A DNA stretch of 64,000 bases from the NCBI GenBank assembly GCA_021776615.1, contig JAJFFO010000017.1:62001-126000 (forward strand), in the 5' to 3' direction. This document shows positions 1,319 to 18,107 of this stretch, one piece after another; the first letter of the stretch is position 1; the number at the start of each line of letters is the position of its first letter. A model generated the notes under the pieces. That model did not search any database, was not told the origin of the DNA, and saw only the letters and a list, made by a program, of their open reading frames with translations. Source of the stretch: Robiginitomaculum sp. GTDB lineage: Bacteria > Pseudomonadota > Alphaproteobacteria > Caulobacterales > Maricaulaceae. Both the position numbers and the translations under genes were made by a program.

Positions 1319-2344
1319 ATGCCCCTAGATCAGGTGAAAACCCTGCCGACCAATTTGCCCTACACCCCGCAAATCGCCGAAGAAATGGCGCCGCTTTATG
1401 ACAAGGTCAAAAGCGTTATTCCGCCAATGGAGTGGCCGGTATTTGCGCCGCTTATTCATGCGATTAATCTCCTTAAAGTCGAACGCAATGCGGTGATTTT
1501 GGCGCATAATTACCAAACTCCGGAAATTTTCCATGGGGTCGCCGATATTGTTGGCGACTCACTGAAACTGGCGCGCGAAGCCGCCAAAGTCGACGCCGAT
1601 GTGATCGTGCAATGCGGCGTGCATTTCATGGCGGAAACCGCCAAATTGCTTAATCCCAACACCACGGTTTTATTGCCCGATACCAGGGCCGGGTGCTCTT
1701 TGGCCGAATCCATAACCGCGCAGGATGTGCGCGATTTGCGGGTCAAATATCCGGGCGTGCCGGTGGTCACCTATGTTAATACCAGCGCCGCGGTGAAAGC
1801 CGAGTGCGATATTTGCTGCACGTCCTCTAATGCCGTGCAAGTGGTGGAATCTCTGGGTGCCGAACGGGTGCTGTTGGTACCCGATGAGTTTTTGGCGCAA
1901 AACGTCAATGCGCAAACCGACGTGGAAGTATTGGCATTTTCCGGGCGCTGCGAAGTGCATGAACGCTTTACCGGACAGGAAATTCGCGATTACCGCGCCG
2001 GGCATCAGGGGTTGAAGGTTATCGCTCACCCCGAATGCCCGCCAGAAGTACTGGCCGAGGCCGATTTTTCCGGCTCGACTGCGGGCATGATACAATGGGT
2101 GCAGGACCATCAACCAGAAAAGGTAATGATGGTCACCGAATGCTCGATGAGCGATAATGTGGCGGTGGAAAACCCCAATGTGGAGTTTGTGCGGCCGTGC
2201 AATCTGTGCCCGCATATGAAAAAAATCACCTTGCAGAATATTTTGCAGGCGCTGCAATATAATCGCCATGAAGTGCTTATCGATCCGGTTATTGCCGCCC
2301 CGGCGCGCCGCAGTGTCGAGCGCATGATCGCCCTTTCATCATGA
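1319..2344 (+). CDS. nadA: quinolinate synthase
   Basis: Condenses iminoaspartate with dihydroxyacetone phosphate to quinolinate in de novo NAD synthesis, using an oxygen-sensitive [4Fe-4S] cluster in the cytosol. The 341-residue length fits the family. The three expected cluster cysteines are visible: C99 ([13 protein letters not shown]), C211 ([11 protein letters not shown]) and C297 (CNLCPHMKK). AHNYQ at 62-66 is the conserved N-terminal signature. A GGAGA Shine-Dalgarno precedes the ATG. Its stop overlaps the nadC start by four bases (ATGA), so the two are one translationally coupled operon. The iminoaspartate-producing gene (nadB or an aspartate dehydrogenase) is not between them and must be elsewhere. 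Confidence 0.96.
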
Positions 2345-3195
2345 GCACTCATCCACCGCTGCCCGATGCCGTGCTGCTGCCATTCGTGCAAAACGCTTTG
2401 CACGAAGACCTTGGCCAAGCCGGCGACATAACCAGCAATGCCACCATTGCCGCCGATAAAGTCGCCAAAGCCAACATTGTGCTGCGCGGCCCCGGGCGCA
2501 TTGCCGGTGTGGATTGCGCCCGGCTAACATTCGCGCAATTGGACCCTGAATTACATTTTTTGCCATGCCTGAGCGATGGCGACGATGGCCAAAGCGGCGA
2601 TGTGGTCGCCAATCTTAAAGGTCCGGCGCGGGCGATATTGGCCAGTGAGCGCACCGCGCTTAACTTCCTTAGCCATTTAAGCGGTATCGCCACGTCCACG
2701 CGCGAATACGTCGCCTGCCTTGAAGGCACCAAAGCCCGCTTGGCCTGCACCCGCAAAACACTGCCCGGCCTGCGGGTCTTGCAAAAATATGCGGTGCGCA
2801 TCGGCGGCGGCTTTAATCACCGCTTTCACCTTGGCGATGCCATATTGATCAAGGACAACCATATCCACGCGGCGGGCAGCATTGCGCAGGCGCTTAAAGA
2901 CGCCCGCCAACACGCGGGGCATATGGTCAAAATTGAAATTGAAGTCGACACGCTGGCGCAATTGCGCGAGGCGATGGATTATCGCCCCGATGCAGTGTTG
3001 CTGGACAATATGGACGCGCAGATGTTGAGCCAAGCGGTCAGCCTCATTAACGGGCGGGCTTTGGCCGAAGCTTCTGGCGGCGTGGATTTGAGCAGCATCA
3101 CCGCCATCGCTAATACCGGGGTGGATATTATCTCCACCAGCGCCATAACCATGCGCGCCCCGGCACTGGATTTCGGTCTAGATTTTATTGACTAG
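2341..3195 (+). CDS. nadC: nicotinate-nucleotide pyrophosphorylase (carboxylating)
   Basis: Converts quinolinate and PRPP to nicotinate mononucleotide, CO2 and pyrophosphate, the step after NadA. The 284-residue protein shows the family landmarks: an N-terminal [10 protein letters not shown] segment, [16 protein letters not shown], the substrate-binding [16 protein letters not shown] block, the [15 protein letters not shown] loop, and C-terminal [11 protein letters not shown] plus [11 protein letters not shown] phosphate-binding strands. It starts within the nadA stop codon, so the proteins are made in step. A GC-rich hairpin follows the stop codon. Confidence 0.97.
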
Positions 3196-3234
3196 CGCAT
3201 TGGCGCATAGCCGTGCCTAAGCGCGCCAATACGC
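3195..3234. terminator. hairpin between convergent genes
   Basis: GCGCATTGGCGC (3195-3206) pairs with GCGCCAATACGC (3223-3234) with one mismatch across a 16-base loop. It sits in the short gap between nadC (+) and the sugar dehydrogenase gene (-). There is no T-run on either side, so it is at best a weak bidirectional terminator or a 3'-end stabiliser. Confidence 0.4.
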
Positions 3235-3250
3235 CAAGCGCCACCCCCGC

Positions 3251-4834
3251 CTATTTTACCAAAAACACTTCGCCGTCGAGAAAATCGACAAACAATAAAT
3301 CGCCATTATCGTCCTCACCAATGGCAACAACGGTGCTAATATCGCCAGCCTCGACAAATATGTCCTCATTGATTTTGTTGAAAGACGTGCCGTCCTTGGT
3401 CGTGCCAAATATAAGATCTGCCGCCGGAACAGACCAGATATGGTTTGAGATAGTGTCGGCAAAAACATAATTGCCACGCAAGGCCGCAACGCTACCGTTA
3501 TAAACCACGCCGCCAAGAACCGAATTCCCCTGAATATCAGTAAACGGTATACTCAACGGGCCATGATTATAGATCAAAACCGGTGGCGCAAAGCTGGGGC
3601 TTGGTTGCCCCTGAAAAGGCAAATCCGCCTCCACAACTGGCCACCCCAAATTCAGCCCGCTAACGCCCGATGGAAGCATATCTATCTCTTCGCGACTACT
3701 TTCCTGAACATCGCCAATGAAAAGATTACCTGTATTTTGGTCAATCGATGCGCGGAACGGGTTACGAAAACCAATGGCCCAAATTTCGTCTAATCCCGCA
3801 GAACCAACCAATGGGTTACCCGCCGGTATGCGATAATTCTTTGTTGCATCCCCCGGAAAGTCGTCGCTGCTGACGTCAATGCGCAAAACCTTGCCAAAAT
3901 AGGAGGCGGTGTTTTGCGATACGCCGGTATCGCCAACGCCACTATCGCCGGTCGTAATATAGAGATTAGCGTCCGGTCCAAAGCCAATCCAGCCGCCATG
4001 ATGGATATTGCCGGCCCGATCAAATTGTAAAATGATCTCTTCCGTAAATGTATCGGCAACATCGGGAGTGCTCGCTGCCACGGTGTAGCGACGCACCTCA
4101 TCTTGCCGCGCTGCATTGGTAACGAAGACATAGAAATGGCCGTTTGTCGCAAAATCCGGATCGAAAGCTAGGGAGTACAGGCCGTCTTCCCTGTCGGTGG
4201 AAACCGTAAAACTAATATCTAAAAACGGGGTTGTTGCGGCAGTCTTTGTCGCCGGGTTGATAATCTGGACGATCCCGCGTTTTCCCACCACCAATATGCG
4301 GTTGGTGCCATCATTTTTGCCAATGGCATACATCGGCTCGACCAGCCCCTGAATTAGCCGACTTGCCGATAATTCAAGCGCGGAATCGCGGACAGTAACA
4401 CTAACATTAAGCGTCGCGGTCACCGTACCGTCGGACACCTGCACAATAATTTCATAAATATTATTGGCGTCCCCATCCTGAGGTGCTTCGAAATCCGGGC
4501 CAGCAACAAAACTCAGCGCCCCGCTTGCCGGATCGACGGCCAGCAGCGCGGCATCAGCGCCGCTTAAGGAAAAGCTTAAAGCGTCCCCATCTGCGTCCGA
4601 CGCCGTAGCGATATAGCCAGTCTGCACCATGTTTTCAGTTACGCTGGCCGTAGATGCGGAGGTCAGCACTGGCGGATTGTTCACAGCAGGGGGTGGTGGT
4701 GGAGGTGGTGGCGGCGGAACGTTCGGCGCATCTGATCCGCCGCATGTCGAAACTAATATACCTAAAGCTATTGCGCTAATCGCCCGTATAAACCCCAGAT
4801 AACGCACCCTCACCTCCCGCATAACCTTCAACAC
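3251..4834 (-). CDS. PQQ-type glucose/sorbosone dehydrogenase lipoprotein with cadherin-like domain
   Basis: A 527-residue exported protein. The N-terminus has basic residues, a hydrophobic stretch and a lipobox-like VSTC-GG, then a run of ten prolines. Residues about 50-150 form a cadherin-like module (SDADGDALSF, VSDGTVTATLNVSV). The remainder (from about 155) is a beta-propeller of the soluble aldose/sorbosone dehydrogenase family: DREDGLYSLAFDPDF, HHGGWIGFGPDANLYITTGD, GKVLRID, IWAIGFRNPF, and a C-terminal GDLLFVDFLDGEVF. The family oxidises sugars or sugar alcohols with PQQ in the periplasm; the real substrate is unknown, and cofactor binding is inferred. It is transcribed alone, divergent from the DUF2157 gene. 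The polyproline tether and cadherin module suggest surface anchoring with the propeller held away from the membrane. Confidence 0.85.
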   Translation of the reverse strand: MLKVMREVRVRYLGFIRAISAIALGILVSTCGGSDAPNVPPPPPPPPPPAVNNPPVLTSASTASVTENMVQTGYIATASDADGDALSFSLSGADAALLAVDPASGALSFVAGPDFEAPQDGDANNIYEIIVQVSDGTVTATLNVSVTVRDSALELSASRLIQGLVEPMYAIGKNDGTNRILVVGKRGIVQIINPATKTAATTPFLDISFTVSTDREDGLYSLAFDPDFATNGHFYVFVTNAARQDEVRRYTVAASTPDVADTFTEEIILQFDRAGNIHHGGWIGFGPDANLYITTGDSGVGDTGVSQNTASYFGKVLRIDVSSDDFPGDATKNYRIPAGNPLVGSAGLDEIWAIGFRNPFRASIDQNTGNLFIGDVQESSREEIDMLPSGVSGLNLGWPVVEADLPFQGQPSPSFAPPVLIYNHGPLSIPFTDIQGNSVLGGVVYNGSVAALRGNYVFADTISNHIWSVPAADLIFGTTKDGTSFNKINEDIFVEAGDISTVVAIGEDDNGDLLFVDFLDGEVFLVK

Positions 4835-4974
4835 CTCCCAATATCACAAACTGCGCCGCAAGCCCACATTCAAGACCGGCACAATCCGCGTTACGTCAGA
4901 AAAACGGAACTGTCCATTACCTCAAATATCCACATTATGCTTGCCCCGACAGATCAGCGCTTTACACTCGGCCC

Positions 4975-6276
4975 ATGCGACCACCGTTATATTTACGTGC
5001 TTTGAAGCAAGACCTCGACATTTGGATTGAGGGCGGTTTGGTGCCGGCGGCCAGCCGCGACGCCATTTTGCAAAGTGCCGGGACGCAAAAGGGCAAAATT
5101 TCGGCGGTTGGCGTATTGGCCATGTTGGGCGCGGTGTTTATGGCGCTGGCGGCCTTGAGCTTTATTGGTGCCAATTGGGGCGGCATTGCCAAAATTGTGC
5201 GCTTTGGCTTGGTATTAGGGCTGATGTGGGGGGCGCTTGGCGTCGCGCTTTACGCGCTAAAGCGGCGCGCCCACGCTTTCGCCCATGCTTTCGCCCTCAT
5301 TGCCGCCGCTTTATTTGGCGTTGGCATTATGCTGGTCGCGCAAATTTTCAACATTGCCGCGCATTATCCCAATGGAATTTTTATCTGGGCATTGGGCGCT
5401 TTGGCGGTGGCGGTGGTCATGCCCTCGCGCCCGGTTTTGTTGTTGGCGGCGGGTTTGGCGGCCTTGTGGATGCTGGTGTCCTATAGTGGTTCCCTGCCCG
5501 GTTTTAATCCGCTTATCTGGGCGTTATTGCCGTTATTGATGGTGCTTTGGGCGGCGGCGCGGCATTTGCGCGCCGTGGATAGCGCCCATGTCATTGTTCT
5601 TACCGCTTTGGTTTGGGCCACACATTTGTTGGCGCAGGCAGAGCGCCACCAATATTTAAGCGAGATTGAGGCCATTTCATTATTTGCGACCATGGCACTG
5701 GCCCTATTGTTGTGGGCTGGCTTGGGCCGCGCGAAAAGCATATTTGGCGCACCGGCGGCGCAATTATGGGCTGGTCTTGCCCTGTTGGGCAGCGCTTTTG
5801 TATTGCAATACACCTTTGCGGATTTCGCACGTGAAGCGGTGGCACCCGGCACGCTCTGGAGCCTTTTGGCCGGGGTTTTACTGCTGCTGATTAGTACGGC
5901 AGTAATGATCGCTTATCAGGCGAAGACCTTGAGCTTATTAGAAGCGGCAATCCCCATTATCGGCGGGTTTTTCCTCCTTGGAATTTCACCCCTTAGCATC
6001 CATTTGGGTGAATTTACCGCCCAAATTCTCTACGGGGCGATGTTTTTTGCCGGGGCGGTGCTGACATTACTCAAAGGCGCGCGTAGCGGACAAAAATACT
6101 TGCTCTGGCTGGGCGGTATCGCTTTCATCGCAGAGGCGCTTTACGCATATTTTGAAACCTTCAAGGACCTGCTCAGCACATCAATTTTCTTCCTGATTGG
6201 CGGGCTATTAATGCTCATTATGGCGCTAATTGCCATGCGCTTTGGCAAGGTTCTCGCCAAAGGCGGTGCGTCATGA
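4975..6276 (+). CDS. DUF2157 multi-pass membrane protein
   Basis: A 433-residue protein. The N-terminal 40 residues are a soluble helical segment (LKQDLDIWIEGGLVPAA) typical of DUF2157, and the rest is about twelve hydrophobic helices. An early SFIGANWGGIAKIVR loop matches the family consensus. The function of DUF2157 proteins is not established. The gene overlaps the next one by ATGA; the DUF2157 plus GDYXXLXY pairing is common in proteobacteria, which supports a joint membrane complex. The start is the only ATG before the conserved N-terminus. Confidence 0.85.
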   Translation: MRPPLYLRALKQDLDIWIEGGLVPAASRDAILQSAGTQKGKISAVGVLAMLGAVFMALAALSFIGANWGGIAKIVRFGLVLGLMWGALGVALYALKRRAHAFAHAFALIAAALFGVGIMLVAQIFNIAAHYPNGIFIWALGALAVAVVMPSRPVLLLAAGLAALWMLVSYSGSLPGFNPLIWALLPLLMVLWAAARHLRAVDSAHVIVLTALVWATHLLAQAERHQYLSEIEAISLFATMALALLLWAGLGRAKSIFGAPAAQLWAGLALLGSAFVLQYTFADFAREAVAPGTLWSLLAGVLLLLISTAVMIAYQAKTLSLLEAAIPIIGGFFLLGISPLSIHLGEFTAQILYGAMFFAGAVLTLLKGARSGQKYLLWLGGIAFIAEALYAYFETFKDLLSTSIFFLIGGLLMLIMALIAMRFGKVLAKGGAS

Positions 6277-6842
6277 GTGCGTCAAAACGCCTGCTGATTG
6301 CCTTTGCCATTATGACCGGGTTTTTACTGTACATGGCCATCGACCATGAATTTCGGCGCAGCAATGGCGACGAAATGGTTTTAGACATGGAACCGGTGGA
6401 TCCGCGATCGCTGTTTCGCGGGCATTATGTGCGTATTCGCACCGATGCGCATCAACTAAACCCGAATGGGCTTTCCGGCGATGACGAGTTTGTCAAAGGG
6501 CAGAACATATATGTGGCTTTGGAAGTCGATGATGAGGGAAGCTGGCACCCGAATGCCATTTTTCACGACCAACCAAAACCGCCATACGCTTTCATCAAAG
6601 GCATTGTATCAAGCGTGGCACGCTACCAACGCAAAGTCGGAGAAATCAATACATCAGTCTACCGGCTCAGCGTTCAATACAATATTGAAAGTTATTTTGC
6701 CGACAAGGCGTCTGCGAAAAATCTGGAAACCCTTGTGCGCGACCATAAAATGCGACTGATCTTGTCAGTCGGCCCCGATGGCCGTGCGGTGATCAAGGGT
6801 ATTGAGATTGACGGCGAACGCCAGCTCGACACGCTGTATTAG
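6273..6842 (+). CDS. GDYXXLXY-type membrane-anchored protein
   Basis: A 189-residue protein with one N-terminal membrane helix (residues 7-23) and a periplasmic domain. The family-defining motif appears as the variant RGHYVRIRT (GHY for GDY, T for the final Y), preceded by the usual DPRSLFRG. It is translationally coupled to the upstream DUF2157 gene through a four-base overlap, the usual partner. Function is unknown. The degenerate motif is worth noting but may fall within normal family variation. Confidence 0.75.
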   Translation: MSASKRLLIAFAIMTGFLLYMAIDHEFRRSNGDEMVLDMEPVDPRSLFRGHYVRIRTDAHQLNPNGLSGDDEFVKGQNIYVALEVDDEGSWHPNAIFHDQPKPPYAFIKGIVSSVARYQRKVGEINTSVYRLSVQYNIESYFADKASAKNLETLVRDHKMRLILSVGPDGRAVIKGIEIDGERQLDTLY

Positions 6843-6872
6843 GTTCGGGCTATTAGCGTTGAACCGTAACAT

Positions 6873-6946
6873 CCCAAAGCGCGACCGCGCGTCGGCCGGT
6901 CAGGCCGCCCCGCCCTAAGGCGCTTCTTCGCGCCGCGAGACAAATA
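6873..6946. repeat. extragenic GC-rich repeat, copy A
   Basis: A 74-base unit starting CCCAAAGCGCGACCGCGCGT and ending GCGCTTCTTCGCGCCGCGAG plus ACAAATA. It is almost identical to copy B 38 bases downstream and shares its right half with copy C near 14.3 kb. It contains the dyads CGGCCGGTCAGGCCG and GGCGCTTCTTCGCGCC, so it can fold as a double hairpin like REP/BIME elements. No coding function is likely. Confidence 0.8.
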
Positions 6947-6984
6947 GTACTCAACATAAAGGAGTAACCTTTGAATCTTAGTAC

Positions 6985-7057
6985 CCCAAAGCGCGACCGC
7001 GCGTCGGCCGGTCAGGCCGCCCCGTCGGAGGCGCTTCTTCGCGCCGCGAGACAAATA
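6985..7057. repeat. extragenic GC-rich repeat, copy B
   Basis: Same orientation as copy A and identical except around the middle, where GTCGGAGG replaces GCCCTAAGG. It ends 14 bases before the start codon of the amino-acid permease, so it lies in that gene's leader and could affect its translation. Tandem same-orientation copies suggest local duplication. Confidence 0.8.
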
Positions 7058-7071
7058 ATGGCAAGGTGAGT

Positions 7072-8394
7072 ATGCACAAGTTTAAGTTCTGGACCGCCAC
7101 CGCTGTGGTCATCGCCAATATGATCGGCACCGGCGTATTCACCAGCCTTGGCTATCAATTGCAGGACATTCGCGCACCCTTCGTACTGCTAATGTTATGG
7201 GTGGTTGGCGGAGTGACCGCGCTTTGCGGGGCCATGAGCTATGCCGAATTGGGGGCCGCATTGCCGCGCTCTGGCGGCGAATATAATTTTTTGGGCCGGA
7301 TTTATCATCCGGCAGCAGGGTTTATTTCGGGCTGGATGTCGGCGCTTATCGGCTTTGCCGCGCCCACCGCTTTGGCGGCCATCACCTTTGGCACCTATTT
7401 CGTCTCGGTCCTGCCCGGTGTCGACAATACCTCTTGGGTGGTCAAGGCGCTGGCCGCCACTTTGGTTTTGGTGATGACCGTTGTCCACGCGTCCACCCAT
7501 CGCAATAGCGGGCGCACGCAAGTCGCCTTTACCGCGCTCAAAATTGTGCTCATCTGCCTGTTCTGCTTTGCGGCTTTGGCTATGGTGCCAGACGCGCAGG
7601 ATATCAGCCTAGTGCCAGCCAAAGGCGAAGGCTCGCTGATGTTTACCGGGGCGTTTGCGGTATCACTGATCTATGTCAGCTATGCCTATACCGGCTGGAA
7701 CGCGGCCACTTACCTCAGCGGCGAAGTGGAAAACCCCCAGAAGATTTTGCCATGGGTGTTATTCACCGGCACCGCTCTGGTTATGGTGCTCTATTTGGCG
7801 CTGAACTTTATGTTTTTAAAAGTCGCGCCGATGGACGCCATGGTTGGCAAATTGGAAATTGGTTATATCGCCGCCGAATACGCCTTTGGCCAAACCGGGG
7901 CGCGATTTATCGGCGTGGCATTGGCGCTATTGCTGGTCTCTACGGTCAGCGCCATGATTATCGCCGGGCCACGGGTATTGCAGGTATTGGGAGAAGATTT
8001 CTCGGTTTTTCGCCCATTGGCCAAAACCAATGCGGACGGTATTCCGGTAGCCGCGATCTGGTTTCAGTCGGTACTAACCCTGGCTTTCATCATCACGTCG
8101 AGCTTTGAATCGATATTGGTGTTTTCGGGCATGTTGCTGGCGCTTAACAGCTTTGCCGCCGTGTTGGGCGTGTTTGTGTTGCGCTGGCGACAGCCGGACT
8201 TGCCGCGCCCTTACCGGGTTTTTGCCTATCCGCTTACGCCGCTGGTTTTTATGGCGTTGACCGGCTTTACCCTGGTCTATGTTGGCATAAGCCGCCCAGT
8301 GGAAGCATTGTTTGCCTTGGGCGTTATCCTCTCAGGGTTCGGGTTTTATATGTTCGCACAATTTCGCAATCGGGGCGCCGCCGCCCAAGACTAA
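7072..8394 (+). CDS. APC-family amino acid permease
   Basis: A 440-residue integral membrane protein with about twelve helices. The first carries VVIANMIGTGVFTSLG, the substrate-binding GXG signature of the amino acid-polyamine-organocation superfamily; SGGEYNFLGRIYHPAAGFISGW and the unwound SYAYTGWNAATYLSGEVENP helix are further family marks. Substrate specificity cannot be read off. The ATG at 7072 is preferred because AAGGTGA precedes it; an in-frame GTG at 7066 would add two residues. It is transcribed alone, right behind two copies of the extragenic repeat, and faces ppk2. Confidence 0.9.
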   Translation: MHKFKFWTATAVVIANMIGTGVFTSLGYQLQDIRAPFVLLMLWVVGGVTALCGAMSYAELGAALPRSGGEYNFLGRIYHPAAGFISGWMSALIGFAAPTALAAITFGTYFVSVLPGVDNTSWVVKALAATLVLVMTVVHASTHRNSGRTQVAFTALKIVLICLFCFAALAMVPDAQDISLVPAKGEGSLMFTGAFAVSLIYVSYAYTGWNAATYLSGEVENPQKILPWVLFTGTALVMVLYLALNFMFLKVAPMDAMVGKLEIGYIAAEYAFGQTGARFIGVALALLLVSTVSAMIIAGPRVLQVLGEDFSVFRPLAKTNADGIPVAAIWFQSVLTLAFIITSSFESILVFSGMLLALNSFAAVLGVFVLRWRQPDLPRPYRVFAYPLTPLVFMALTGFTLVYVGISRPVEALFALGVILSGFGFYMFAQFRNRGAAAQD

Positions 8395-8426
8395 TGCCGG
8401 CTGCCCCAATAGTGTCTCTTTGGCAT

Positions 8427-9425
8427 CTATCCCTCCGTCCCGCGACGCAAATCCGGGTGCAAGCTGGCGCCCAATATATGTTCGGATTTACCGATAACAT
8501 GATGGGTGCCGCCAACAATTAAGGGGTCCGGGCCACGGATCAGTTCATTGTTTTTATTGGGGTATGGCAGGCTGGCCAAAATATGTTGCATACATTCCAG
8601 CCGAGCGCGTTTTTTGTCGTTGGATTTAACAATCGTCCACGGCGCGTCGGCAGTGTCGGTATAAAAAAACATCGCCTCTTTGGCCTCGGTATAATCGCTC
8701 CATTTATCCAGCGACGCCCTGTCAATCGGGGACAGCTTCCATTGTTTTAGCGGGTCATGCTCGCGCGATTTAAACCGCCTTGCCTGTTCATCCTGCGTCA
8801 CCGAAAACCAGAATTTGAAAATACGAATACTGGAGCGCACCAACATGCGTTCCAATTCTGGCACCTGACGCATGAATTCAAGATATTCCGCCGGGGCGCA
8901 AAAGTTCATCACCCTTTCCACACCGGCGCGATTATACCACGAACGGTCAAACAGTACGATTTCGCCGCCGGTCGGCAGATGTTGAATATAACGCTGGAAA
9001 AACCACTGGCTGCGTTCTTGCTCTGTCGGCTTGGAGAGTGCCACCACCCGGGCAGTACGCGGATTCAAATGCTCGGTCAGGCGTTTAATGGTGCCGCCTT
9101 TGCCCGCCGCATCGCGTCCTTCAAAAATCATGACGATTTTTTCGCCGCTCTCCTCGGCCCAATGTTGCATTTTTAGAAGCTCGACCTGAAGTTTGGCTTT
9201 ATACTTCTCATAAGCTTTGCGCCCAATTTTGGTCTCGTACGGATAGACGCCGTTTTCAAAGGCCTCACGAATAGCATCCGGGTCGTGACGCATTTCGGCC
9301 ACGTGTTGCAAGGTTTGGCCGGCAATGTCTTTTTTCGCGGAAGACGCCCCATTGGCAGGCGACGTTTTCGGCATTTGTTTTGGTGTCGGTTTTACAGTAG
9401 GCGTGGATTTTGGCGTTTCAGTCAT
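8427..9425 (-). CDS. ppk2: polyphosphate kinase 2
   Basis: Transfers phosphate between polyphosphate and nucleoside diphosphates (class I PPK2 acts mainly on NDPs). The first 45 residues are a Thr/Pro/Lys-rich tail of unknown role. The kinase core shows Walker A FEGRDAAGKGGTIK (about 101-114), Walker B IVLFDRSWYNRAGVERVM with D160, and the lid arginines in the SQDEQARRFKSRE-like block (TQDEQARRF). Length of 332 residues is slightly above family average because of the tail. Single gene, convergent with the permease. The class assignment is by overall resemblance, not a calculation. Confidence 0.93.
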   Translation of the reverse strand: MTETPKSTPTVKPTPKQMPKTSPANGASSAKKDIAGQTLQHVAEMRHDPDAIREAFENGVYPYETKIGRKAYEKYKAKLQVELLKMQHWAEESGEKIVMIFEGRDAAGKGGTIKRLTEHLNPRTARVVALSKPTEQERSQWFFQRYIQHLPTGGEIVLFDRSWYNRAGVERVMNFCAPAEYLEFMRQVPELERMLVRSSIRIFKFWFSVTQDEQARRFKSREHDPLKQWKLSPIDRASLDKWSDYTEAKEAMFFYTDTADAPWTIVKSNDKKRARLECMQHILASLPYPNKNNELIRGPDPLIVGGTHHVIGKSEHILGASLHPDLRRGTEG

Positions 9426-9518
9426 TATTTGCCCTTCAGTGCGTGGCGAGAATAATTAGTCAGCATACATCAAAACAAACAAAAAAATAAGGTCAGGAAG
9501 CGAGGCAAATTGCCGCTT

Positions 9519-10472
9519 CTACTCGGTCATACTATGTATAAAGTCTCGAGGTTTAGCCAAACCGTAATGCACCAATTCAGCATAGCGCTCGCTTACGATA
9601 TACGCGGATGTCTCCAATTCATCGGCAGAAAATTGCAACTTGAACTTTTCCAGCACCTTTCGCCATTCCGGCGACAAACTACCGTCCAACATTCTCACCA
9701 ATAACAGACTTTCCACGATATCCATTTTTGATGACATATGTCGAAGTTGACGGTCAACGAGGCATAAAATTGCGCCACTATTACCCGTGTCTGCCGCCGC
9801 GCCTAAACCTCTGGCGGAATACTCCCGCCGCCATTTGGTTTTGCGTTTCAGCCGTTCATCCTGATCACACATGCCAGTCCAGGTTTTGGCCAACTTTATC
9901 CGGTCCTTCATGCGGGCTTTGTACGGGGTAGAATTGTTATACGCCTCAAACGGGTCGCCCGGCCATTTGGGGTCATAATTTGGATCCAGCAAGCCATGAG
10001 CTTTCAGCTTTGCGTATTCTTTAGCAGCTCGGCTTTGTGCGTAGCGCATATCGTCGGTTGAAATTTTTGTCGCCAATTCATCCCGGCTTGCCGACATCTG
10101 CGGGTCGAGTTCACCATCGATCAGCGCAATCATTGCAATGCCGGAAAACGCCGAAGAGAAGAGGGTCGGATCATCATCCACCCAGGAATTTATTTTACAT
10201 TTCAACGCCGCGACATTGCCCACGAAGTATGCCGCGTAGCGAGCATCGCGTTGATCATTTCGAACATCATTACTAGCTTCACTGAAACACTCTCCGTCCC
10301 ATTCCTTGGCCATAGCGGCGGCAATTCTGAGATCAGTAGTTGTAAATTTTTGCTGAGGTGTTTTTTGATATTGCCCCCAAACTCCATAGCCCAAACCGAC
10401 CTCTCGCCCCATGTACATGAAGAAAGTGAGAATAACGATGCTCAGCAATAAAAATGGGATATTTTTACTCAT
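9519..10472 (-). CDS. uncharacterised membrane-anchored or secreted protein
   Basis: A 317-residue protein with an N-terminal hydrophobic helix (residues 5-21) and the rest probably periplasmic and mostly helical. Two parts look alike: each has an AKEWDGECF / AKTWTGMC-type segment (about residues 54 and 200), a basic stretch, then a GNVAALKCKI or GAILCLVDR segment holding a cysteine, and a later MIALIDGELDP / LVRMLDGSLSPEW segment. This suggests an internal duplication with paired cysteines that may form disulphides. I do not recognise a family. There is no clear ribosome-binding site and the upstream DNA is AT-rich. Confidence 0.65.
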   Translation of the reverse strand: MSKNIPFLLLSIVILTFFMYMGREVGLGYGVWGQYQKTPQQKFTTTDLRIAAAMAKEWDGECFSEASNDVRNDQRDARYAAYFVGNVAALKCKINSWVDDDPTLFSSAFSGIAMIALIDGELDPQMSASRDELATKISTDDMRYAQSRAAKEYAKLKAHGLLDPNYDPKWPGDPFEAYNNSTPYKARMKDRIKLAKTWTGMCDQDERLKRKTKWRREYSARGLGAAADTGNSGAILCLVDRQLRHMSSKMDIVESLLLVRMLDGSLSPEWRKVLEKFKLQFSADELETSAYIVSERYAELVHYGLAKPRDFIHSMTE

Positions 10473-10727
10473 ATTTTTAAATATATATTACCCAAAATAA
10501 GATGAAGATAAATTTTCAGCGTAAATTATACCATCTACAAGTGATTTGATATGGGATTAAATAAATTTATTCAACGCAATTAAATTTCCGCGATAATTTC
10601 TCTTTAATTTTAGAGAAAACATATGCCCAAATCACACCTAGAATGCAAAATGAACGAAAAGTGTCGCGAGATTCAGAAGGATGCAATTCATTATTTCAAT
10701 CGACAGTAAAATATTCCTAATGAACAA
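10473..10727. other. AT-rich intergenic segment
   Basis: Much richer in A and T than the surrounding genes, between two unrecognised divergent genes. It holds one 28-codon open frame at 10623-10709 (+), beginning MPKSHLECKM, with no evident ribosome-binding site; I do not call it a gene. The composition suggests acquired DNA or a silenced promoter region. Confidence 0.4.
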
Positions 10728-11156
10728 ATGCCTAAACGAAGGTTGATAGAAACCATTCAAAAAAGAATTGATCAGTTGAACCGTAAAAAAGCTCCTTTGG
10801 TGCAACTAGCAAACGCATCAGACCCATCTCAAGCGGAGATCGAAGATTGGATCAAGAAAGGAAAACCGAGCGGCGGTAGAATTAGCCGCCTTCTATCCCC
10901 TATAAAAAACTTAGGTGGGCGTGTGCCCGCCATAACGTTCATCATAGCTTTAGCTAACTTAAAAGCCACGGCACAAGATAAAGTCGCTCGAATAGAATTT
11001 GAAATACGTTCGCTCACAAAAGAGGTAGATAAGGCCCGCAAAGAAATAAAAGATTTAGATGGTGAGAGACGTTCCGCCAGCCAACAAATATCCAGCTTAA
11101 AGAGAAGTTATATTGCAAGAGGTTGCGGGCCAACAATATTGTTACGCTCTTTCTAA
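10728..11156 (+). CDS. hypothetical coiled-coil protein
   Basis: A 142-residue, lysine- and arginine-rich frame with AT-leaning codon use unlike the flanking rluC. Residues 1-30 and 85-128 have heptad-like patterns (RIEFEIRSLTKEVDKARKEI), so a coiled-coil hairpin is likely; a moderately hydrophobic stretch, VPAITFIIALANL, lies between at about 66-78. I do not recognise a family. No strong Shine-Dalgarno precedes the ATG. It could be a real orphan gene or chance; lack of stops in AT-rich DNA and the patterned sequence favour real. Confidence 0.45.
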   Translation: MPKRRLIETIQKRIDQLNRKKAPLVQLANASDPSQAEIEDWIKKGKPSGGRISRLLSPIKNLGGRVPAITFIIALANLKATAQDKVARIEFEIRSLTKEVDKARKEIKDLDGERRSASQQISSLKRSYIARGCGPTILLRSF

Positions 11157-12643: not shown

Positions 12644-14134
12644 TTATTTTTTCGCCGCAGGCTTTTTAGTCGCCGGTTTTTTAGCCGCTGGCTTTTTTGT
12701 TGCTGTCTTAGGCGCAGCCTTTTTAGCGGCAGGTTTTTTGGCTGCTGGCTTTTTAGCCGGTGCCTTTTTGGCGGCTTTCTTCGCTGGCGCGGCGCCCGGG
12801 GCGTCATCGTCGGCGTAAAGCTCTTCGCGGCTGACTTCTACATCTTTCACTTTGGCAAGCTCAAGAATGTAATCGACCACTTTTTCTTCAAAAATCGGCG
12901 CGCGCATACGAGCCTGAGCTTCCGGGTTTTTCTGGAAGTATTCGGCAACCTGCTTTTCCTGCCCCGGATAGCGCATGGCTTCGGCATTAACCGCACGGGC
13001 CAATTCTTCGGCGGCGACATTTATATTGGCTTCCTGGCCAATTTCCGCCAATACCAGACCGAGACGCACGCGGCGTTCGGCAATGCCGCGATATTCGGCT
13101 TTCAACTGGTCTTCCGATTTACCCACGTCATCGTCATCAAGATTACCGGATTTCACATCGCCTTCGACCTGTTGCCAAATACCGGCAAACTCAGCGTCGA
13201 CCATATTGCCCGGCAATTCAAAATCATGCTCCGCGTCCAGCGCGTCCAACAGGCGGCGCTTGGCGCGATTGCGCGATTGCGCCTTGTGTTCGGATTCCAA
13301 GCTCTTGACGACGGCTTCACGCAAAGCGGTCAGCGAATCCATGCCCAATTTCTTGGCGAATTCATCATCAATGACCGTGGTCACCGGTTTTTGGATGTTT
13401 TTGACTGTGGTCGCAAACACCGCGTCTTTACCAGCCAGTGCTTCGGCCTGATATTCGGCAGGGAAGGTTACATTCAGCTCTTTTTCGTCGCCAATTTTTA
13501 CGCCGACAAGCTGCTCTTCAAAACCGGGAATAAACTGGCCGGCGCCGATGACCACTTGCGCATCGTCGGCGGCACCGCCATCAAATTTCTCGCCATCAAT
13601 GCTGCCAACAAAGTCGATGATAACCGCGTCGCCGTCGGCCGCTTTTGCTTTAGCGCCTTTATCTTCGTACGATTTTTGGCTTTCGGCCAGATTAGTCATC
13701 GACTTTTCAATTTCGTCGTCCGCAACTTTTGAAACCGGGCGTTCAATGACTAGCTTGGCCGGGTCGGTCGGGGTAAAGCTTGGCATAATGTCCACATGCA
13801 TGTGGAAGGCCAAATCGGCTTTCCCGGCAATCACGTCCTCGGCTTCATTTTCCATATGAAACTGTGGCTGACCGGCGGGCTTGATATTATTGTCATTGAG
13901 GGCCTTTTCGCTGGCCTCATTCATCGTGCCTTCGACAATTTCGCCCATCATGGACTTGCCGAACATGCGCTTAATGTGTGCGGTTGGCACTTTGCCGGGG
14001 CGGAAGCCCTTGAGCGTAACTTGTGGCTGCACCTCGGCGATTTTTGCATCAAGCCGTTTGCTAAGCTCCGCTTTGGGAACAACAATGTCATAGGAGTGGC
14101 TGAGGCCCTCGGCCTTGGTCTGTTTAACTTGCAT
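12644..14134 (-). CDS. tig: trigger factor with lysine/alanine-rich C-terminal tail
   Basis: Ribosome-associated chaperone and peptidyl-prolyl isomerase. The N-terminal ribosome-binding domain has the signature GFRPGKVP; the FKBP-type PPIase domain (about 150-240) shows GDAVIIDFVGSIDGEKFDGG and FIPGFEEQLVG; the helical C-terminal arms follow. The last roughly 50 residues are repeats of AAKKPA/PAKK type, nearly only Ala, Lys, Pro and Thr, resembling histone-H1-like tails; this is outside the classical fold. The ATG at 14134 (MQVKQTKAEG) matches the usual family start; GTG 14164 or ATG 14161 would add ten or nine residues, and none has a good Shine-Dalgarno. The usual neighbours clpP-clpX-lon are absent. 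Confidence 0.94.
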   Translation of the reverse strand: MQVKQTKAEGLSHSYDIVVPKAELSKRLDAKIAEVQPQVTLKGFRPGKVPTAHIKRMFGKSMMGEIVEGTMNEASEKALNDNNIKPAGQPQFHMENEAEDVIAGKADLAFHMHVDIMPSFTPTDPAKLVIERPVSKVADDEIEKSMTNLAESQKSYEDKGAKAKAADGDAVIIDFVGSIDGEKFDGGAADDAQVVIGAGQFIPGFEEQLVGVKIGDEKELNVTFPAEYQAEALAGKDAVFATTVKNIQKPVTTVIDDEFAKKLGMDSLTALREAVVKSLESEHKAQSRNRAKRRLLDALDAEHDFELPGNMVDAEFAGIWQQVEGDVKSGNLDDDDVGKSEDQLKAEYRGIAERRVRLGLVLAEIGQEANINVAAEELARAVNAEAMRYPGQEKQVAEYFQKNPEAQARMRAPIFEEKVVDYILELAKVKDVEVSREELYADDDAPGAAPAKKAAKKAPAKKPAAKKPAAKKAAPKTATKKPAAKKPATKKPAAKK

Positions 14135-14498
14135 GGTTTTGTCCGGTGTAAAACTTGTCATCACTGCGGTTTAAATGCGTCTTTGTGGGCGCGCGAAGCG
14201 CCTTATGTCATGAGTATGTTAGCGAAGCAACGCCTCGAATGCGCATATTCCATCATATTCACATAGCCAAGAGGCGTCAGTGAAGCAGTAGGACAAACAA
14301 AACCCCTGGGGGCGAAAGCCAATTTCAAACCGCACCCAAGGGTGCGACCGCGCCCCGGCGACCGTGCGCCGCCCCGTCGGAGGCGCTTCTTCGCGCCGCG
14401 AGACAAAAAAACGATGCTGGTTTCTATAGGTGTGTGTGCTATTTGCTCGGCTTCGGTGGCTTGTAAAAATACCCCACCGCGCTTGCGTTGCGTTGTAA
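14135..14498. other. intergenic region with repeat copy C
   Basis: No convincing gene. It presumably holds the tig promoter and, toward the right, extragenic repeat copy C (annotated separately). Several short GC dyads are present, such as GCGCGCGAAGCGCC near 14190. A degenerate ACAAACAAAACCCC block precedes copy C. Confidence 0.5.
14335..14407. repeat. extragenic GC-rich repeat, copy C
   Basis: Shares GCCCCGTCGGAGGCGCTTCT followed by TCGCGCCGCGAGACAAA exactly with copy B at 7 kb, while the left half is diverged (GCGACCGCGCCCCGGCGACC). The orientation matches copies A and B. It lies in the gap between tig and the CPBP protease gene. Confidence 0.75.
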
Positions 14499-15287
14499 AT
14501 GATGGAGAGTTTAGTGACTAGCGAAACCGCACAGGATGAGAGTCTGGCCGCCAAAGGCAAACAGCTCAGCATAAAACGAAGCCTGCTCCTTCTTGCCATT
14601 TTTGTCGGATCGCAGATTGTTTTTGCCATCGGATTTCATTTGTCGATCAACGCCTTGGGCGATGCCTATCCGGCATTGAAGAATCTAGATCGTGAAATTA
14701 TTGCGCTTACGTCAACCATTAGCGCCATGCTGGTTGCTTTGTTGTGGATAAGTATCGACCTCGGCCGCTTTGGTCGGGGCTTTGGTGCCCAGATAGGTTT
14801 TCGCGCCGCCGGTGAGATACGGCGACACCCCCTATTTCTCTTCCTGTTTGCGTTTCTGGTCGTCCGTTTGCTGGTTTGGGCATATCGAATAATCTTGTTG
14901 CCCTATTTGGGCATTGACAATCCAGTTGGCGGCGGCACGCAAATGTTCGCCTATTTTCAGGCTAACCCGTCCATTGTCGGCTTTGCGGCCTTTAGTGCCA
15001 TGGCCTTTGTCATTGGCCCCGTGGTTGAAGAGTTGGTGTTCAGGGGCTATTTGCAATCAGCGCTGTCGCGTCGGATTGCGCCGTTATTCGCCATTATCCT
15101 GACGTCCCTTGTGTTTATGCTTTTGCATGGCCCCACGATTCTATGGCCGGCGTATTTTTTGCACAGCGTGTTGTTTGGATGGATATATGCGCATACAAAA
15201 TCGATTAAGATGGCAATGTTATTCCATATGCTGAATAATCTTTATTATTTGGTGGTCGCCATGGCGGGGTTGTCCTGGTTGACGTAA
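14499..15287 (+). CDS. CPBP-family intramembrane metalloprotease
   Basis: An Abi/CAAX-type protease of 262 residues with about eight membrane helices. All motifs are present: EELVFRG (E177, E178, R182), FMLLHG with H210, and FHMLNN with H243 and N246. Family members cleave within or near the membrane, and bacterial versions are linked to bacteriocin immunity or anchored-protein processing; the substrate here is unknown. Start choice among ATG 14499, ATG 14502 and a GTG a few codons later is uncertain. It is transcribed alone. Confidence 0.88.
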   Translation: MMESLVTSETAQDESLAAKGKQLSIKRSLLLLAIFVGSQIVFAIGFHLSINALGDAYPALKNLDREIIALTSTISAMLVALLWISIDLGRFGRGFGAQIGFRAAGEIRRHPLFLFLFAFLVVRLLVWAYRIILLPYLGIDNPVGGGTQMFAYFQANPSIVGFAAFSAMAFVIGPVVEELVFRGYLQSALSRRIAPLFAIILTSLVFMLLHGPTILWPAYFLHSVLFGWIYAHTKSIKMAMLFHMLNNLYYLVVAMAGLSWLT

Positions 15288-15722
15288 GCTCTGATTGACG
15301 GTGCCTCCTTCCCGCGGCCAGGATATTTTTCATGATCCGTGAGGGTTAAGCCCATGACGCTGGAAAGCATCTATTATATCGGGCAGACGGCGGCGGTGAT
15401 CGTACACCAGAGCTAGCCATTATTGCACCCCGGTGCCCAAAACATTTGGCGTTCGCCGACCCATTGGAGACGTCCCTTCACGCCGCGAGCCCTCCCCCAC
15501 AAAAGCTAAGCGTCAGCACCGCGATAGGGCAAACAAATGTGGTGCCAGCTGGTCAACGCTATTCGAACTGACCACAAGGATAAAATCCTTATTTTTCAAG
15601 TACCGGCATTTTTCAAAATGGCTTTTGCAGCATATATAGGTCAAAAAAGTAGTGCAAATAAAATGTTGGGTTTATAATCAAGTGCCATACTGAGAAGCGC
15701 TTCCTTAATATGAGTATAAAAC
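15288..15722. other. 435-base intergenic region, composition shifting from GC- to AT-rich
   Basis: No gene seen. The left part (about 15440-15545) has sequence loosely like the extragenic repeat (CCATTGGAGACGTCCCTTCA followed by CGCCGCGAG, and GCGATAGGGCAAACAAAT), suggesting a decayed copy. From about 15570 the sequence turns AT-rich and stays so through the RimB-RimK gene, marking the edge of a compositionally foreign block. Confidence 0.5.
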
Positions 15723-17090
15723 ATGTCTAAGAAAATAGTTATTGGAAAAGAGGAATGGTGTGGATTGCCAGAATTAGGTCTACCTGCCATAAAGGCACGT
15801 GTTGATTCGGGCGCAAAAACATCCTCATTACATGCCTTTAATATTCACCCATTTGAAGAAGATGGGAATAAATATGTACATTTTGATATTCACCCCATCC
15901 AAGATAACCGTAAAGTCATACAAAGTTGTCGAGGATTAGTTGTAGATCAACGTAATATTAAAAGTTCGAGTGGGGAGAAGGAAAAAAGACATGTAATCAG
16001 AACGCCAATATCTTTAGGTGATGAAACATGGGAAATAGAGGTTACTCTAACTAATCGTGACTCAATGGGATATCGTATGCTACTTGGTCGTGAAGCGATG
16101 AAAGAGCGCGTGTTGATTGATCCTGACGCATCTTTATGCCTTGGAAGTATTAATGAAAAAGATATAGAGAAGCATTATAACAAGGTTGGGACTAAAAAAG
16201 ATGGTCTTAAGATCGTTCTTCTTGCAAGCAATCCAGAGCTTTACTCAAACAAACGCATCATGGAGGCTGGAGAAGAACGTGGTCACGAGATGCGTTTCAT
16301 TAACATAAGCCAATGTTACATGAATATTAGCTCATCTAACCCTGAAGTACACTATCGTGGCGGAGAATTATTAGATGGCGTGGATGCAGTGATACCTCGT
16401 ATTAAACCTTCTATGACCTTTTATGGCTGTGCTGTTGCACGTCAGTTTCAATCAGTTGGATCATTTTGCTTAAATGATTCGGTATCTGTGTCACGTTCAA
16501 GAGATAAATTACGTTCATTACAACTTCTATCAACCAAGGGCATTCCAATGCCTACAACGGGATTTGCAAATTCTCCTGTAGATACAGCAGACATTATTAA
16601 AATGGTCGGGGGAGCGCCGTTAGTGGTTAAGCTTTTAGAGGGAACTCAAGGAAAAGGGGTTGTGCTTGCAGAAACCAACAAGGCCGCAGAAAGTGTGATA
16701 AATGCATTCAAAAGCCTGCAAGCCAACATTCTTGTGCAAGAATTTATCAAAGAAGCGGACGGAAAAGATATCCGCTGCTTTGTTGTTGATGGTAAAGTTG
16801 TTGGCTCTATACAACGTCAAGCAGCAGAAGGTGAGTTCCGTGCTAATTTACATCTTGGTGGTACAGCTAGCTCTGTAAAAATAACAGCAGAAGAAAGAAA
16901 AATAGCTATCAATGCAGCAAAAGCAATGGGTTTAAAAGTCGCAGGTGTTGATATAATACGCTCCAAAGGTGGTCCAAAAGTTCTCGAAATCAATTCATCT
17001 CCTGGTCTTGAAGGCATTGAAGATGTTACAGAAAAAGACGTTGCAGGTCTTATGATTGAGAGCGTTGAGAAGGCTGTTAGAAAGAAGTAA
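15723..17090 (+). CDS. fused RimB-type protease and RimK-type ATP-grasp ligase
   Basis: A 455-residue two-domain protein. Residues 1-150 match the RimK-associated retropepsin-like family (PF05618, often named ATP-dependent zinc protease): the active-site-like VDSGAKTSS at 27-35 and [10 protein letters not shown] at 117-126. Residues 160-455 are a RimK-type ligase: [13 protein letters not shown], the ATP-binding [19 protein letters not shown] (about 299-317), [13 protein letters not shown] and the metal-binding [15 protein letters not shown]. RimK adds glutamates to the C-terminus of ribosomal protein S6; the protease domain may process the same tail. Codon use is AT-rich throughout, unlike neighbours, and tRNA-Leu lies 240 bases beyond. 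Transfer is likely. Confidence 0.88.
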
Positions 17091-17170
17091 TTCCTGCTTA
17101 CTTTCAAATATTATAACATCAATAGCTGTACATCCATAGATTACTCGCAGGTACTCCGGGCTCCCCTCTT

Positions 17171-17239
17171 TTACGGGTACGCCGAGCGTTTATCGTTTTT
17201 TGCTTGCTCCATTATCTCATCGATTTTCTTTTGACCCAT
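17171..17239 (-). CDS. possible 22-residue small protein
   Basis: A short open frame reading MGQKKIDEIMEQ and so on, with GGAG seven bases before its ATG. Upstream, TTCGAA palindromes recur: GTTCGAAC near 17263 and the tandem GTTCGAACTGTTCGAAC near 17311-17327, next to the tRNA 3' end. It may be a remnant of a mobile element or chance. Only the ribosome-binding site and the palindromes support it. Confidence 0.2.
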   Translation of the reverse strand: MGQKKIDEIMEQAKNDKRSAYP

Positions 17240-17330
17240 GTCATGTCTCCGAATGTTATTGTTCGAACACACAACAGCGACAATAAATGAATGAAGTCAA
17301 TAGGATAGATGTTCGAACTGTTCGAACAAA

Positions 17331-17415
<85 letters not shown>

Positions 17416-17492: not shown

Positions 17493-18107
17493 ATGCATGA
17501 TGAAGATGACAAAAACGCACCCTTCGAGGCCGGTCCGGACTGGGAAAGGCGCTATGAAGAAAACTCAACCCGGTGGGAGCGCGGCAGCTTAAGCCCCGCT
17601 TTTACCCAATGGCAGGCCAATGGCCAGTTTGATGGCCTGCGCCACATCATCATCCCCGGCTGTGGTCGCTCCCCTGAACCGTTGGCCTTTGCCAAAATGG
17701 GTATGCAGGTCAGTGCGCTGGATTTCGCCCCGTCGGCGGCCATTTTTCAACGAGACGCATTCGCGGGCGCGGATTTGCGCGGCCAGATTGAACCGGCGGA
17801 TGTGTTGCTATGGCAGCCGCAAACGCCCGCCGATGCAGTGTATGACCAAACCTGCCTGTGCGCCCTCACCCCCGCCGTATGGGCGGATTATGAGGCACAA
17901 ATTCGCCGCTGGCTAACGCCCGGCGGCCGCGCTTTCATGTTGTTTATGCAAACCGACAAGCCCGGTGGCCCGCCATTTCATTGCGACCTTGAGGCCATGC
18001 GCGCCCTATTCAGCACCGCCCATTGGCAATGGCCGGATGAAGAGGCGATACAAGCACCGCAATTTAACGAAAAGCTTGAACTGGGTGTGGTGCTGACGCG
18101 CGTTTAG
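17493..18107 (+). CDS. thiopurine S-methyltransferase family (TPMT) methyltransferase
   Basis: A 204-residue SAM-dependent methyltransferase. WERRYEENSTRWERG near the N-terminus matches the TPMT-family WxxRW-type start, motif I appears as IIIPGCGRSPEPLAFA, followed by VSALDFAPSA and DQTCLCALTPAVW. PF05724 members act on thiols, selenium, tellurium or thiocyanate; the acceptor here is unknown. It ends four bases inside the convergent MATE gene. The family assignment is firm, the substrate not. Confidence 0.85.
   Translation: MHDEDDKNAPFEAGPDWERRYEENSTRWERGSLSPAFTQWQANGQFDGLRHIIIPGCGRSPEPLAFAKMGMQVSALDFAPSAAIFQRDAFAGADLRGQIEPADVLLWQPQTPADAVYDQTCLCALTPAVWADYEAQIRRWLTPGGRAFMLFMQTDKPGGPPFHCDLEAMRALFSTAHWQWPDEEAIQAPQFNEKLELGVVLTRV

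Follow-up and report, generated by a model that had tools for sequence, protein, structure and literature searches.

Within a 64,000-nucleotide stretch of the genome of Robiginitomaculum sp. (assembly GCA_021776615.1, contig JAJFFO010000017.1, positions 62,001 to 126,000 of the forward strand; hereafter called the window), one gene, rimBK, encodes RimB and RimK in a single polypeptide (Table 1). On balance, we favour the view that this is a lone acquired gene whose product acts as a bifunctional poly-alpha-glutamate ligase and endopeptidase, and that the C-terminus of ribosomal protein S6 is probably not its acceptor. That RimBK belongs to a known class of hybrid enzymes and is encoded by an intact gene is well supported. 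The hybrid was described and named in 2025 (PMC11957791) and is thus not new. As comparison shows, a single rimBK gene from an AT-richer, distant bacterium was inserted at a variable spot between the trigger factor gene (tig) and the tRNA-Leu(TAG) gene. Judging from the intact domains and from the published RimK, RimB and RimBK enzymes, the RimK part would make alpha-linked glutamate chains using ATP, and the N-terminal retropepsin domain of RimB would cut glutamate runs. Rather than acting on S6, the enzyme probably makes and trims free poly-alpha-glutamate or tails another acceptor, perhaps in connection with the ion or osmotic balance suggested by the neighbours of some related enzymes.

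Inspection of the reading frame revealed 455 codons with zero internal stops, in which the RimB domain precedes the pre-ATP-grasp and ATP-grasp domains of RimK. The latter two match Rimk_N (PF18030, residues 162–255, E 5e-37) and RimK (PF08443, residues 260–447, E 1.1e-65), and these matches as well as the match of the N-terminal domain to PF05618 each exceed the Pfam gathering score. Thus, the fusion proposed in the first-pass annotation of this DNA is confirmed as one intact frame with all three domains. The RimK part is also matched by the structure of P. aeruginosa RimK (7qyr, E 2.5e-120), and RimBK passes the NCBIfam RimK equivalog NF007764 with 404.5 bits against a cut-off of 331. The curated equivalog for stand-alone RimB (NF052261) was failed with 123.8 bits against 200, whereas the Pfam family cut-off was passed; the score for a stand-alone RimB is not a defining trait of the hybrid. 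The retropepsin aspartate in its D-(S/T)-G context is present as D28-S-G and aligns with the D-T-G of the structures 9g59, 9g58 and 2pma, and D28 and G30 are invariant across 32 aligned proteins including our own. An AlphaFold model of RimBK is only fair (mean pLDDT 70, pTM 0.56); its fold match in the PDB is RimK, the RimB half not being among the 50 matches listed. The genome as assembled holds one copy of the gene, and PADLOC, consulted for a role in defence, matched neither RimBK nor the adjoining CAAX protease gene.

Base composition sets rimBK apart from its host. As reference we used 319 kb from 16 stretches of the genome (2.16 Mb in 25 contigs, 70.7% complete), which have a GC content of 53.3%. 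The GC content of rimBK is 40.0%, only one of 446 windows of equal length being this low, and its GC content at third codon positions (GC3) is 27.9% as compared to 58.5 ± 4.7% in open reading frames (ORFs) of at least 200 amino acids, none of 185 being equally low. Its codon usage lies at a distance of 0.304 from that of the genome (0.125 ± 0.028 for 113 ORFs, none equally far). Along the sequence, GC drops from 48–52% just left of ~15500 to 38–42% over 15500–17250. The stretch from 15288, the first base after the stop codon of the CAAX protease gene, to ~15545 is not AT-rich and holds repeat units present elsewhere in the genome. Since GC3 of the CAAX protease gene is likewise host-like, the compositionally foreign block comprises ~15546–17330 rather than the whole interval between tig and the tRNA. 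The GC and codon-usage comparison thereby bears out the foreign composition claimed at first pass, and the AT-rich block with one fused gene ending at the tRNA 3' end stands, with its start placed at ~15546.

The insertion becomes apparent when the locus is compared within the genus. The tRNA-Leu(TAG) gene lies on the minus strand, so that its 3' end faces the AT-rich block. Counting our own, 16 of 18 genus genomes have a match to trigger factor, the near-complete congener matches being 67–85% identical, and 17 of 18 match the TPMT-like methyltransferase on the other side of the tRNA. In 8 of 17 congeners (G001, G003, G004, G005, G007, G010, G012 and G017), trigger factor is followed by only 121–212 bp (counted up to where the trigger-factor match begins), tRNA-Leu(TAG) and the methyltransferase gene, as compared to 3.2 kb between trigger factor and tRNA-Leu in our genome. 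The spot is variable, because congener G015 has this interval filled with other genes: over 8.3 kb it encodes an outer-membrane factor, CusB-type and AcrB-type pump proteins and, adjoining the tRNA, AbiH (Cus-type efflux genes and AbiH at 2052–9769 of locus L159). In the remaining eight congeners the interval is not readable in one piece, as the genes lie on separate contigs or were not all found. None of the congeners with a readable interval has rimBK between trigger factor and tRNA-Leu, that is, same-place orthologues of the same composition were not found there. Thus, insertion beside tRNA-Leu, as the first-pass annotation had it, is supported by the short interval of the congeners. Its further suggestion, a typical island integrated at a tRNA site, fared less well, and a classical integrase-driven island is not supported: among ORFs of at least 80 amino acids in 14165–17330, an integrase was not found, Pfam matches being obtained only for the CAAX protease and RimBK, and a search with a 26-mer of the tRNA-Leu 3' end allowing up to 3 mismatches matched nothing in the window but the tRNA itself, so that no duplicate lies on the left.

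To trace the descent of rimBK we surveyed 61 genomes, among them 17 congeners and 43 other members of the family or order. Fifteen of the 17 congeners gave weak ATP-grasp matches only, and G015 as well as, in fragments, G011 encode rimB and rimK as separate genes. A fused gene is present in 20 of the 43 other family or order members, whose products are 50–55% identical to our RimBK. Closer relatives occur elsewhere: the best 80 of 186 loci encode proteins of 62–87% identity, and those in the tree group of our gene reach 75–87%. The nearest ones come from records whose titles name Alphaproteobacteria, Gammaproteobacteria, Bacteroidota and a few further groups; most of these are metagenome bins with possibly wrong titles. 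In seven family or order members, trigger factor and RimBK are 48–56% and 50–55% identical to ours, respectively, whereas in distant hosts the values are 45% and 82% (G064), 45% and 81% (G072) and 28% and 82% (G063). The nearest RimBK of all, 87% identical, is in a bin titled Prochloron (G061) with a trigger factor of 25% identity, on a contig that is possibly misfiled. The trigger-factor values suggest an alphaproteobacterial host for our gene. In a tree of 70 rows, our gene falls into clade B (44 rows, support 100/100), the fused genes of the order form a separate clade A (20 rows, 100/99), and six split pairs stand apart (100/99). A second, unrooted tree of 47 rows, to which four plasmid pairs were added, likewise places fused A, fused B and split genes each on one side of a branch; being unrooted, it does not tell one fusion event from two. 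The gene tree therefore does not follow the hosts, and trigger factor shows the opposite relatedness. The short congener interval, the conflict between gene tree and host relatedness, and the composition all indicate that rimBK came by horizontal transfer from a distant bacterium of higher AT content, a conclusion that is well supported.

RimBK was also seen in records titled Prochloron (L031), Rhizobium (L055), Nitrotoga (L077) and Bifidobacterium (L085). The first groups with our gene, the second and third stand among Flavobacteriaceae and the last lies outside the tree sample; all four are probably misbinned contigs. As to possible carriers, 230 plasmid records match RimBK, 20 of them covering 80% or more of the query, with a best identity of 63%; 15 of the records were listed. 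Carriage by phages found no support: a pattern scan of viral_contigs, sensitive to close relatives alone, gave none, and 36 phage records match RimBK in part, none over 80% of the protein. Among the 15 phage matches listed, 14 are cyanophage RimK-like proteins of ~31% identity and one is an unannotated Escherichia phage record of 2,088 bases (58%). RimK-like ATP-grasp proteins of Synechococcus phages and cyanophages (H17–H30) include several annotated as S6 glutaminyl transferase.

We next turn to the acceptor. The first-pass annotation held that one chain, a retropepsin domain fused to an S6 glutamyl ligase, would couple addition and trimming of glutamate tails. The coupling itself fits the architecture and the published hybrid; the S6 half is doubtful. 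In the available part of PMC11957791, RimBK of D. psychrophila is reported to cut polyglutamylated RpsF, its isolated RimB part equalling Pseudomonas RimB in this activity, and glutamylation of RpsF of strain SBW25 by this RimBK was not seen; furthermore, Pseudomonas RimB stimulates the synthesis of free poly-alpha-glutamate by RimK. In our host, S6 is present and ends in KRRVERY (SPILIKREERKRRVERY), that is without the C-terminal Glu that would mark an extendable tail, and this end resembles S6 of several congeners that have no RimK-type match. None of 20 clade-A hosts has an S6 ending in Glu, and among 39 clade-B hosts surveyed from the 80 loci there are 14, all belonging to the 15 records of gammaproteobacterial title. 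Judged from these sequences, S6 appears an unlikely target of RimBK in its own host, where the encoded S6 C-terminus is probably not the acceptor.

The site that would hold the glutamate chain has also changed. According to the accessible text of PMC10092738, P. aeruginosa RimK contacts a bound chain through S7, R8, S14, R64, S68, R189 and N262. We aligned 112 rows (81 of clade B, 20 of clade A, 11 split RimKs) and found the equivalents of S14, R64, R189 and N262 kept in all of them, our protein keeping S68 too. At position 7, all 81 clade-B rows have A; at position 8, 79 have S and 2 have T. Among the 11 split RimKs, R8 is retained in 10 and S7 in 4, and all 20 clade-A rows have T in place of S7, 9 of them retaining R8. 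The residue equivalent to G66, next to R64, is R in 61 and K in 20 of the 81 clade-B rows, whereas the other 31 rows all have G, and the place of A67 is taken by P in 80 of 81 clade-B rows. In this alignment, loss at position 8 is thus complete in clade B alone and the change at position 66 is confined to it, so that a positive charge appears to have shifted inside the pocket. We did not find this change described in the accessible parts of the RimK and RimBK literature cited here.

Neighbouring genes provide a further hint. The nearest clade-B genes have varied surroundings. Of the 80 clade-B loci, 78 have a complete rimBK ORF, and in 28 of these the gene immediately upstream, transcribed in the same direction, belongs to one Clp ATPase cluster; the representative of this cluster, from Flavobacterium fontis, combines Clp_N, AAA and UVR domains in the manner of ClpC. 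CorA-type genes lie near 6 of the 80 loci (L032, L033, L038, L040, L072 and L075), four of which also have AstE/AspA-type and MscS-type genes. In the order, whose loci were examined with 1.5-kb flanks, AstE/AspA-type neighbours accompany four of the six split loci and none of the 20 clade-A loci; they also accompany 4 of 5 plasmid loci. On a plasmid of Vibrio europaeus (L361), the genes rimK, aspA, rimB, a magnesium transporter gene, corA, mscS and a universal stress protein gene follow each other in one direction. Across L361, L320–L323, L032 and L033, rimK/rimB occur with an AstE/AspA-family hydrolase gene, in part also with MscS, CorA and magnesium-transporter genes, and such groups in distant hosts possibly constitute a cation or osmotic module. 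A literature search with a single phrase returned no paper on rimK beside an AstE/AspA gene. The neighbours hint at ion or osmotic balance, and the Rlo system, a relative with an osmotic role (PMC12239564, accessible part), points the same way.

Several observations weigh against the view favoured here. The insertion has neither an integrase nor a clear att repeat to explain it, and PMC11957791, in its available part, places rimBK in only a few orders, chiefly Flavobacteriales and Rhodobacterales, a distribution that taken alone argues for less transfer than we infer. Regarding S6, the C-terminal residue is Asp, hence still acidic, in 10 of the 20 clade-A hosts, in addition to the Glu of 14 of 39 clade-B hosts. 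Five of the seven reported contacts persist in our protein, 7 of 11 split RimKs likewise differ at S7, and 11 of 20 clade-A rows differ at R8; given the kept contacts and the changes outside clade B, the altered pocket may leave the acceptor unaffected. Finally, ion or osmotic neighbours were found at only six of the 80 clade-B loci and at none of the 20 clade-A loci, the latter viewed with 1.5-kb flanks, none occur in the window, and no AspA-type relative was found in our genome, which is 70.7% complete.

A further-reaching proposal, which we put forward tentatively and hold to be less than probable, is that clade-B RimBK constitutes a distinct poly-alpha-glutamate synthase and hydrolase rather than an S6 ligase. 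In this case, its pocket would have been rebuilt (S-R to A-S at positions 7–8, G to K/R at 66), and the gene would be a one-gene module that moved between phyla and serves ion or osmotic homeostasis or another acceptor. Conversely, RimBK could still modify S6, adding glutamate to a C-terminus other than Glu or to another site and trimming it, thereby tuning translation like Pseudomonas RimABK. The RimK part indeed exceeds the equivalog cut-off, five contact residues are kept and the genome encodes S6; however, the basic tail ...KREERKRRVERY, resembling that of several congeners lacking a RimK-type match, and the result reported for SBW25 RpsF make this unlikely. It is also conceivable that rimBK is a recent passenger, that is a foreign gene in a variable spot, with no settled role, hardly expressed and decaying. 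Its strongly foreign codon usage, its solitary position, the lack of this RimBK form in the congeners and the lack of a strong ribosome-binding site upstream of the ATG, as judged by eye, would fit, but the 455 intact codons, the kept catalytic motif and the high identity to the nearest relative leave this with little probability. An assembly chimera, in which the AT-rich block was wrongly joined to the contig, could be suspected from the fragmentary genome and the abrupt shift in composition but is highly improbable, since both flanks belong to one neighbourhood conserved in eight congeners, which a chimera would need to exit and re-enter, and repeats known elsewhere in the genome reach the left edge of the block.

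How the gene may have entered is suggested by repeats at tRNA tails. A dispersed GC-rich repeat of ~90 nucleotides has 24 matches in our genome and occurs in 17 of 18 genus genomes. In 3 of 17 stretches of our genome it starts 0–1 nucleotides from the 3' end of a tRNA (Glu, Ser and Met), in tandem in all three, and in G009 a copy lies between tRNA-Leu and a 25-nucleotide duplicate of its 3' end. It looks like a tRNA-tail-linked repeat, reminiscent of the rtT repeats found at tyrT in E. coli. Left of the AT-rich block, the unit at ~15498–15545 ends with TGGTGC, which complements a tRNA 3' end, and like units lie next to tRNA 3' ends of the host: one stands directly before the tail of tRNA-Leu(TAA) (L336), and another (L341) precedes a tail-like sequence not recognized by ARAGORN. 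Recombination between such repeats is a possible route for the insertion of rimBK. A literature search on tRNA-linked repeats with all five terms combined gave no match. By eye and with no estimate of chance, we noted a short imperfect likeness (9–14 nucleotides) between AACAAATGTGGTGC ending at 15545 and AACAAATGGTGC at 17325–17336, as well as TTCGAACTG at both 15562–15570 and 17312–17320.

A candidate tRNA 3' fragment at 15540–15577, with a T-arm-like TTCGAA and a CCA end, was rejected: an Rfam search at E 10 yielded no tRNA, the fold is no better than that of shuffled sequences (z -0.9), and among 358 loci its 16-mer occurs only in loci of our own genome that overlap 15540–15577. Between rimBK and the tRNA, a 22-codon frame (17171–17239, minus strand) is preceded by three GTTCGAAC palindromes, as seen by eye, and together they may be the remnant of a regulated gene of a mobile element. 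The segment 17091–17330 matched no plasmid or phage, and beyond itself gave one match of 36 nucleotides (E 0.001) in 199 genomes. The CAAX protease has two weak matches in the 17 congeners and no clear orthologue there. A second AT-rich dip of the window lies at 10250–11000 (GC 35–37%), where an ORF at 10728–11156 weakly matches Siphovirus Gp157 with a score that does not reach the cut-off.

Table 1. Coordinates, within the window, of rimBK, its parts and the surrounding features.
Feature	Position	Strand	Basis or remark
Trigger factor (tig)	12644..14164	-	Conserved left flank; named by eye and from relatives
Dispersed GC-rich repeat copy of the genus	14325..14417		Repeat also at tRNA 3' ends in some places
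CAAX (Rce1-like) membrane protease	14499..15287	+	PF02517; GC3 58.8%
Degenerate repeat copy (~15420-15489) and unit (~15498-15545)	15420..15545		Limits by eye
AT-rich inserted block	15546..17330		Between repeat unit ending TGGTGC and TGGTGC of the tRNA-Leu 3' end; left edge by eye
RimBK hybrid gene	15723..17090	+	455 amino acids; ORF list and Pfam, NCBIfam and PDB matches
RimB retropepsin-like domain	15738..16127	+	Residues 6-135; Zn_protease/RimB PF05618, E 6.9e-35; PDB relatives 9g59, 9g58, 2pma
Putative catalytic Asp28 codon	15804-15806	+	Retropepsin motif R-V-D28-S-G-A-K-T-S-S-L-H
RimK part	16206..17063	+	Pre-ATP-grasp, residues 162-255; ATP-grasp, residues 260-447
Codons of A168-S169, at P. 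aeruginosa RimK S7-R8	16224..16229	+	Alignment; contacts from accessible text of PMC10092738
Codon of K228, at P. aeruginosa RimK G66	16404..16406	+	Alignment
GTTCGAAC palindromes between rimBK and tRNA	17259..17329		11-nucleotide inverted repeat TTGTTCGAACA / TGTTCGAACAA; z -2.1 as RNA
tRNA-Leu (TAG)	17331..17415	-	3' end faces the AT-rich block
TPMT-like methyltransferase	17493..18107	+	Conserved right flank; PF05724

Taken together, our RimBK is ordinary in kind and useful for the question of what RimBK modifies, which the 2025 paper, in its accessible part, left open (PMC11957791). The S6 survey and the clade-wide change of the chain-binding site provide concrete, testable grounds to look beyond S6, and the locus is a clean example of such an enzyme coming into a genus: no RimK-type match was obtained for 15 of the 17 congeners sampled. 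Should free polyglutamate prove to be the target, RimBK would represent a polymer switch encoded by a single gene and shared by bacteria across phyla.

Among known systems, RimBK of Desulfotalea psychrophila (DP2392, Q6AKK4), described in the available part of PMC11957791, has the same one-chain order with RimB N-terminal to RimK, a likeness of architecture rather than of aligned sequence. The loci found here span more groups than the few orders reported there, many of them in metagenome bins. Pseudomonas RimABK comprises the same two enzymes; the catalytic Asp motif is kept, and the structural match aligns our RimK part with P. aeruginosa RimK at 65% identity. However, RimB and RimK of Pseudomonas are encoded by separate genes, the equivalents of RimK S7, R8 and G66 are changed in our protein, and S6 of SBW25, which according to the accessible text of PMC11957791 ends in DNADE, is unlike our S6. 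The RloABC system of P. aeruginosa likewise pairs a RimB-like retropepsin that cuts polyglutamate with an ATP-grasp protein, its RloA having a signal peptide and an inactive transglutaminase partner, RloB (PMC12239564, accessible part); our RimBK falls far below the curated RloA, RloA2 and RloA3 models (55–71 bits as compared to 210–280) and has its retropepsin fused to a true RimK. Finally, the split rimB-rimK-aspA clusters on plasmids of Salinivibrio, Acaryochloris, Phaeobacter and Vibrio carry rimB and rimK homologues beside a gene of the AstE/AspA family, sometimes with ion channels or transporters. They differ from our locus in that their genes are unfused and stand outside clade B in the tree, whereas our gene is a fused member of clade B with no such neighbour in the window.

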